From Verrucomicrobiota bacterium (GTDB lineage Bacteria > Verrucomicrobiota > Verrucomicrobiia > Verrucomicrobiales > Verrucomicrobiaceae), in NCBI GenBank assembly GCA_963204975.1, contig CAUJJC010000309.1, forward strand, positions 1-33,123: 33,123 nt of DNA. Direction: 5' to 3'. Positions 27,012-27,154 of the stretch are shown in pieces. The position numbers and the translations under genes were made by a program. Each line of letters starts with the position of its first letter. Position 1 is the first letter of the stretch. The notes under the pieces were generated by a model. The model saw only the letters and a program-made list of their open reading frames with translations, did not search any database and was not told the origin of the DNA.

Positions 27012-27154
27012 GACAGGATTTACAAGATTCTCAGGATCATTCAGGATGGCCCGGCTGCACTTTGGAGGCTCCGATTTGAAACGATGCGTTTTGCCGCTGG
27101 TTTCAAATCACGTTGATCAATCCTGCATCATCCTGCCATCCTGTTAATCCTGTC
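27012..27154. repeat. Nested inverted-repeat element (REP-like)
   Basis: The left arm (27012-27047) and right arm (27120-27154) are imperfect inverted copies. Read in the same sense, each arm holds four ATCCTG-type units spaced 8-10 bp apart (one left unit is ATCTTG), ending ATCCTGTC. Between them lies a perfect 10-bp inverted repeat, GATTTGAAAC (27073-27082) and GTTTCAAATC (27100-27109). The element is 143 bp, non-coding, and fills the gap between the PLP enzyme and ligA. The layout suggests a palindromic dispersed repeat or a miniature mobile element. Confidence 0.7.

Follow-up and report, generated by a model that had tools for sequence, protein, structure and literature searches.

The window analysed here (the whole stretch of 33,123 nucleotides from a member of the Verrucomicrobiota) carries a nested inverted repeat directly in front of ligA, which raises the question of whether this structure belongs to the leader of that gene or is one copy of a repeat that is dispersed over the genome. 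It is neither a product of chance nor a ligA-specific leader. In our judgement it is rather probably a gene-less paired-arm copy of a dispersed family, whose coding member, located elsewhere, is an arm-bracketed gene of the GxxExxY family. That this family exists and is tied to GxxExxY is well supported by independent comparisons. The features of the locus are as follows.

25489 to 26991, forward strand: gene upstream of the element, a PLP-dependent enzyme of Cys/Met metabolism, host flank (Pfam, open reading frame)
27013 to 27047, reverse strand: left arm, four ACAGGAT-type units (arm finder, sequence, copies elsewhere in the genome)
27048 to 27119, no strand: core between the arms; the cores of other paired copies in the same genome differ
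27073 to 27082, forward strand: left half of the perfect 10-bp inverted repeat of the core, GATTTGAAAC, paired in the DNA fold
27100 to 27109, reverse strand: right half of the perfect 10-bp inverted repeat of the core, GTTTCAAATC (sequence, DNA fold)
27120 to 27154, forward strand: right arm, four ATCCTG units, outer end ATCCTGTC followed by an A-rich stretch
27176 to 29161, forward strand: ligA, NAD-dependent DNA ligase, host flank outside the element (Pfam, end of the open reading frame)

The units of the left arm are located at 27014 (CAGGAT), 27023 (the variant CAAGAT), 27032 and 27042 (both CAGGAT), spaced by 9, 9 and 10 nt, and the ATCCTG units of the right arm at 27120, 27130, 27138 and 27147, spaced by 10, 8 and 9 nt; one of the eight units is a variant (ATCTTG). 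The outer arm pair is 85% complementary over 20 nt (repeat search), a single arm is not a palindrome, and ends similar to the outer end are common among the arms of other genomes. The first-pass annotation had described inverted arms with four ATCCTG-type units each, a perfect 10-bp repeat in the core and a distance of 21 bp to ligA (27154 to 27176), and all of this was confirmed from the sequence. An arm finder (at least three units, 8-10 nt apart, at least two of them exact) yielded these two arms and no others in the window and nothing in its reversed sequence, and 200 first-order Markov sequences of window length contained 0.005 arms on average and never two. Single matches to the pattern ATCCTGTNAATCCTGT at up to three mismatches are weak, because 2 of 100 shuffles reach the three matches seen in the window (all of them inside the element); significance is carried by the whole arms.

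In the window's genome (6.18 Mb, 369 contigs, 87.6% complete) ATCCTGTNAATCCTGT has 21 matches at up to two mismatches, not all of them within arms, versus one for the reversed control. Further arm pairs are present on contigs C91 (one arm degenerate), C183, C273 and C71, and a single arm on C256, which makes at least five copies beyond the ligA element, with differing cores between the arms. Over about 500 bp, the ATCCTG element on C183 (L034, positions 1450-2150) also contains another nested inverted repeat that is longer (around TTAGCCGGTGGTGCAG), and its right arm and part of its core are present twice.

The ligA site of the same-genus genome G387 is without the element: the last letters of the upstream gene are identical, and a GAGAAGTGA-type tandem tract and then ligA come after it. 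Five other copy sites were located in G387 by a joined-flank search, and arms are missing at all of them, giving six of six sites without arms. The first-pass annotation had suggested a dispersed REP-like element, and this is supported: copies are present in the genome, the arms are missing at the ligA site and at five further sites in a same-genus species, and a lone copy conserved only in the ligA leader was not observed. G387 itself has nine pattern matches at up to two mismatches (one exact), versus two in the control. Neither an exact insertion boundary nor a target duplication was readable at the G387 sites, because their intergenic stretches differ in other ways too, some holding other short repeats, and no clean empty site was available for a duplication reading. 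A MITE of a DDE transposon would have terminal inverted repeats with a target-site duplication; inverted arms are present in the element, and single-arm copies are common. At the site matching C71:3195-3269, G387 (L343) has a GTCCTTT tract with units about 9 nt apart and an inverted partner in place of the ATCCTG pair, as if other word families refilled intergenic slots.

Across the phylum, the pattern was found at up to one mismatch in 176 of 387 sampled genomes, with no match in the remaining 211, and the reversed pattern gave any match in about 25 of the 387, mostly one. The highest count is 68 + 52 = 120 matches, where a match is not equal to a copy, as one arm can yield two. In G187, of the same family, the pattern matches 43 times in either orientation when two mismatches are allowed (control 0), and most of the arms inspected there are single. 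Two single arms of G187 lie 277 bp apart in an apparent tandem duplication (L298, G187:C12:41278-41587).

A Pfam scan of 111 open reading frames adjoining arms was led by PF13366 with two members, and among the best 25 of the 131 families detected, seven had more than one member. PF13366 genes were first taken from ten high-copy genomes, and many of the flanks contain inverted arms of the same plan built from different words. The sample was then extended by 80 loci of named genomes that span many phyla, by 30 loci out of the phylum search and by 40 more stretches; of 180 loci in total, 179 contain a GxxExxY gene by profile, and 171 of these have both flanks. Inverted arms scoring at least 14 surround 126 of the 171 genes, versus 5 of 250 pairs of windows displaced within the same loci and 7 of 266 open reading frames from the neighbourhood, leaving 45 genes without inverted arms at this score; at a score of 18 the numbers are 91 of 171 genes, 0 of 250 window pairs and 5 of 266 neighbours. 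The additional 40 stretches came largely from ATCCTG-rich genomes, and the first 132 loci alone gave 92 of 132. Against swapped flanks, 51 of the 132 loci exceeded their 99th percentile; this null is strict, because the loci share words, and displaced windows and neighbouring open reading frames were therefore added as nulls.

The words in the flanks vary by gene and include CACAGAG, CGCAAAG, CACGAAA, CACTAAT, ACAGGAT and others. Gene-bearing elements are situated between closely spaced genes, e.g., beside pheS or inside a pyruvate-dehydrogenase-type operon (gene names assigned by eye). PF13366 occurs in 230 of the 387 genomes of the phylum and also in other phyla, including archaea. GxxExxY was detected in 8 of 72,556 plasmid records, all predicted to be non-mobilizable; at E 1e-5, a set of 50,697 phage records gave no match. 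Some GxxExxY loci (L226, L212, L109, L197) have long inverted flanks or repeated sets of word arms, and two loci of G203 (L103, L109) have arms of compound words, CACAAAG and then CAGGAG units, around their genes.

The proteins bracketed by ATCCTG arms belong to GxxExxY (TIGR04256 / PF13366 PDDEXK_3), a family with proteins of about 125 residues; the gene bracketed by ATCCTG arms in G229 scores 153.6 bits against the TIGR04256 profile (curated cut-off 35). The residues D69, E79 and K81 are invariant in 48 sequences and the same in 13 proteins of the ATCCTG clade. A structure model of the protein of L119 (encoded by a CACAGAG-type and not an ATCCTG-type gene; pLDDT 95.3) has its best solved-structure match in SSO0001, which we take to be a Cas4 protein (Foldseek E 0.0018, Z 9.8, rmsd 4.6 over 100 residues). 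Next, at Z 5.8 to 8.1, come restriction enzymes, Hjc-type nucleases and a named Cas4 (Pcal_0546 at 6.6), a range in which a match may reflect no more than a common arrangement, and lambda exonuclease and the homing endonuclease I-Bth0305I are also among the Foldseek matches. At the sequence level, the similarity of GxxExxY to Cas4 profiles is marginal (E 0.005), and the GxxExxY profile matched none of the sequences of solved structures at E up to 1. On the strength of the modelled core fold and the D...ExK residues, GxxExxY is a predicted PD-(D/E)XK nuclease; the model places it in the fold class of the Cas4/lambda-exonuclease group, although it differs from Cas4 in its size and in this marginal sequence similarity.

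Word classes were assigned by regular expressions to 112 of the 171 genes (59 without a class), and a protein tree was calculated for 111 word-labelled genes; the ATCCTG-flanked gene of L115, with a short domain, was left out. The 13 ATCCTG-labelled rows, from eight families of the phylum, form one side of a single branch (SH-aLRT 92) in a tree that has few columns and many open forks. The ATCCTG label needs one change on this tree (shuffled mean 12.5; none of 500 shuffles as low), and all word labels together need 21 (52.6 shuffled). A single genome, G229, carries genes of different clades with different words. Agreement of word and clade would also be expected if arms and gene were merely co-inherited.

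A clade profile was built from the 13 ATCCTG-flanked proteins, which score 170.9-196.6 bits when each is left out in turn, while all others reach 162.5 bits at most, and clade genes were called at 165 bits or more. They are present in 28 of the 387 genomes, one or two per genome, and all 28 genomes have pattern matches (median 15.5, minimum 3), versus a median of 0 in the other 359, with 211 lacking any match (p 6.5e-17); eight genomes with a best match of 154 to 163 bits were counted as gene-less. The association persists within families (permutation p 5e-5), as computed over 15 families with 175 genomes, of which 27 have the gene; a family represented by one genome was omitted. Of the 359 genomes in which no clade gene reached this threshold, 34 also have at least ten matches, including the single-contig G088 (89) and G199 (43); the gene is therefore unnecessary for keeping copies, though loss after spreading would look alike. 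Strict ATCCTG arms are present on both sides at 19 of 30 clade loci (28 at or above the threshold, two below it), and weaker ones were seen by eye at several others; L383, below the threshold, has the variant word ACAGAAT. The likeness of single arms to gene arms is greater within a genome than when the gene arms are taken from the seven others (64 distinct arms, p 0.0008), where the eight genomes compared are not all independent because G090 and G104 are close relatives. The gene arms of G187 are spaced 9-8-9, as are 11 of its 20 distinct single arms.

The orientation of the arms was compared with GC skew as a proxy for replication strand, the C-rich strand being read as the lagging strand. 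In G088, a single contig of which 1.2 of 4.73 Mb were sampled, the ATCCTG strand lies on the C-rich strand in 20 of 20 arms (12 of 12 in the negative-skew half and 8 of 8 in the other half; one arm inside a lysine-rich coding stretch is left out of this count), and the directions of the flanking genes are mixed. A second finder with another word rule placed 10 of 10 ATCCTG arms of G088 on the C-rich strand (one in the reversed control), and CACAGAG/CGCAGAG-type arms keep the rule in 12 of 14 cases, both exceptions being partners in inverted pairs (control none). In G187, 19 of 20 distinct single arms agree; counted by pattern places, 23 of 26 agree, and one of the three exceptions is an arm of the gene pair. 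Seven other genomes follow the rule in 19 of 25 single arms with clear skew, and a mixed set in 8 of 13 single arms (6 of 8 with clear skew), local GC skew giving no information in the low-skew genomes of that set. The strand rule holds in two genomes (G088 and G187) and elsewhere less clearly.

These observations are best read as REP/RAYT-like dispersed repeats with a PD-(D/E)XK nuclease in place of the HUH transposase. An arm is built from three or four words, each about 6-7 nt long and repeated at intervals of about 9 nt, and its outer end recurs. Arms occur in three arrangements: singly, in inverted pairs that enclose a short and variable core (the form seen before ligA), and in inverted pairs that enclose a GxxExxY gene. 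By analogy with REP/RAYT, the nuclease may recognise and bind the array specific to its clade, probably where replication forks expose it in single-stranded form. It would cut the array, and repair or rejoining would seed arm copies elsewhere, in trans and in one orientation relative to replication, the protein in this way driving the spread. The window itself has no GxxExxY gene, and the two PF13366 genes found in its genome (C279 and C189) code for long proteins around which no arms were found; in an assembly that is 87.6% complete, the ligA copy was therefore probably left behind as a relic, or else a gene that is now lost or unassembled put it there. For the wider claim, that GxxExxY proteins are the enzymes of a large, unnamed class of dispersed repeats in bacteria and archaea, with clade-specific word arrays at about 9-nt spacing and single arms entering one strand at forks, parallel to REP/RAYT with an unrelated, Cas4-like enzyme, we consider the chances to be even.

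The plain text of the open papers searched held nothing related for ATCCTG-type repeat strings and nothing for strings of the other words. In the portions of the open literature covered, the GxxExxY family is named only in passing, with neither a function nor a repeat association, and no description of the arm-GxxExxY system was retrieved when this literature was searched for REPs of Verrucomicrobia or for PDDEXK proteins together with repeats. The bracketing of the gene by arms points to a repeat-spreading system for which these searches gave no earlier description. GxxExxY, known in this literature only by its motif name, gains an anatomy and a testable partner in the word arrays that flank it. 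Should the nuclease read these arrays, a common type of intergenic repeat would be explained, and the natural series of matched pairs of nuclease and word would be a ready set for studying change of DNA specificity. The arrangement would, if true, be a second, independent origin of one like REP/RAYT.

A homing-type process, in which GxxExxY cuts a vacant site, repair copies the bracketed gene in and gene-less copies are deletion remnants, is rather unlikely. The PD-(D/E)XK fold, the presence of I-Bth0305I among the structural matches and the position of gene-bearing elements between closely spaced genes would suit it, but one or two clade genes per genome stand against up to tens of pattern matches, and single arms with recurrent outer ends resemble independent units. 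Considering long and strong matches only, 11 of the 28 clade-gene loci fall into four groups whose members share strong neighbours, which leaves 17 others; the gene therefore keeps its location within some families and differs in location between families, and a location common to, e.g., four f36 loci suggests vertical inheritance and not frequent homing.

A nuclease-driven repeat family is also preferred over classical REPs or REPINs moved by a REP-associated HUH (Y1) transposase, with the GxxExxY link incidental, a reading we regard as quite improbable. The plan is much alike: as in the REP/REPIN-RAYT (TnpA-REP) 'REPtrons', many short extragenic repeats occur singly or as inverted pairs and are patchily distributed, one coding gene is bracketed by them, and its clade matches the repeat type (for the REP/RAYT side see PMC6006769 and PMC3733652). 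Strand polarity is a further likeness, shared with other single-strand systems including REP/RAYT (same sources), and the orientation tied to the replication strand recalls IS200/IS605, which prefer the lagging strand (PMC6006769). The window's genome, moreover, has 15 Y1_Tnp matches. None of the 12 Y1_Tnp loci examined among these 15 is bracketed by ATCCTG units, however, and 242 loci (1.78 Mb, near arms or from the sampled quarter of G088) contain no open reading frame matched by a profile built on the Y1 proteins of the window's genome; this profile recovered the held-out L046 and each left-out member and misses weaker Y1 matches. No Y1 gene adjoins arms in the loci examined, unlike in IS200/IS605, and no transposase family is among the multi-member families of the 111 arm neighbours (best 25 of 131 families). 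The unit also differs, being an array of words about 9 nt apart and not a GTAG-tagged palindrome; of the GTAG or CGTC tags described for REPs (PMC3733652), neither is present on either strand of 27013-27154. The linked transposase of the REP-associated type that the first-pass annotation had proposed to look for was thus not found, GxxExxY being linked instead, in other genomes. By the features tested, this is not a REP/RAYT system.

It is similarly improbable that the arms are polar motifs of chromosome architecture or DNA uptake under selection, with GxxExxY genes merely lying between two of them. Strict orientation along the replichores of G088 and a mostly extragenic location would fit such motifs, but the arms are missing at all six sites compared in the same-genus species, 211 of the 387 genomes have no match, the word varies by gene even within one genome, and GxxExxY genes are bracketed far more often than neighbouring open reading frames.

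A cis-regulatory hairpin of the ligA leader is highly improbable: a stable fold is predicted 21 bp before the start codon and four ligA leaders of other genera have units, but the element is missing in G387, 12 of 17 leaders are without units and the same element occurs at unrelated genes. The large hairpin that had been suggested for the leader is possible as a structure (the element region folded as single-stranded DNA gives -28 kcal/mol, z -3.59, with 1 of 200 shuffles as low), and nothing indicates that it is important for ligA. Among the 17 ligA leaders compared (of 27 loci), the arm pair is confined to that of the window, and in the four with right-arm-like units (L275, L277, L279 and L281, from other genera of the family), between one and three ATCCTG/ATCTTG units are located directly before the start codon.
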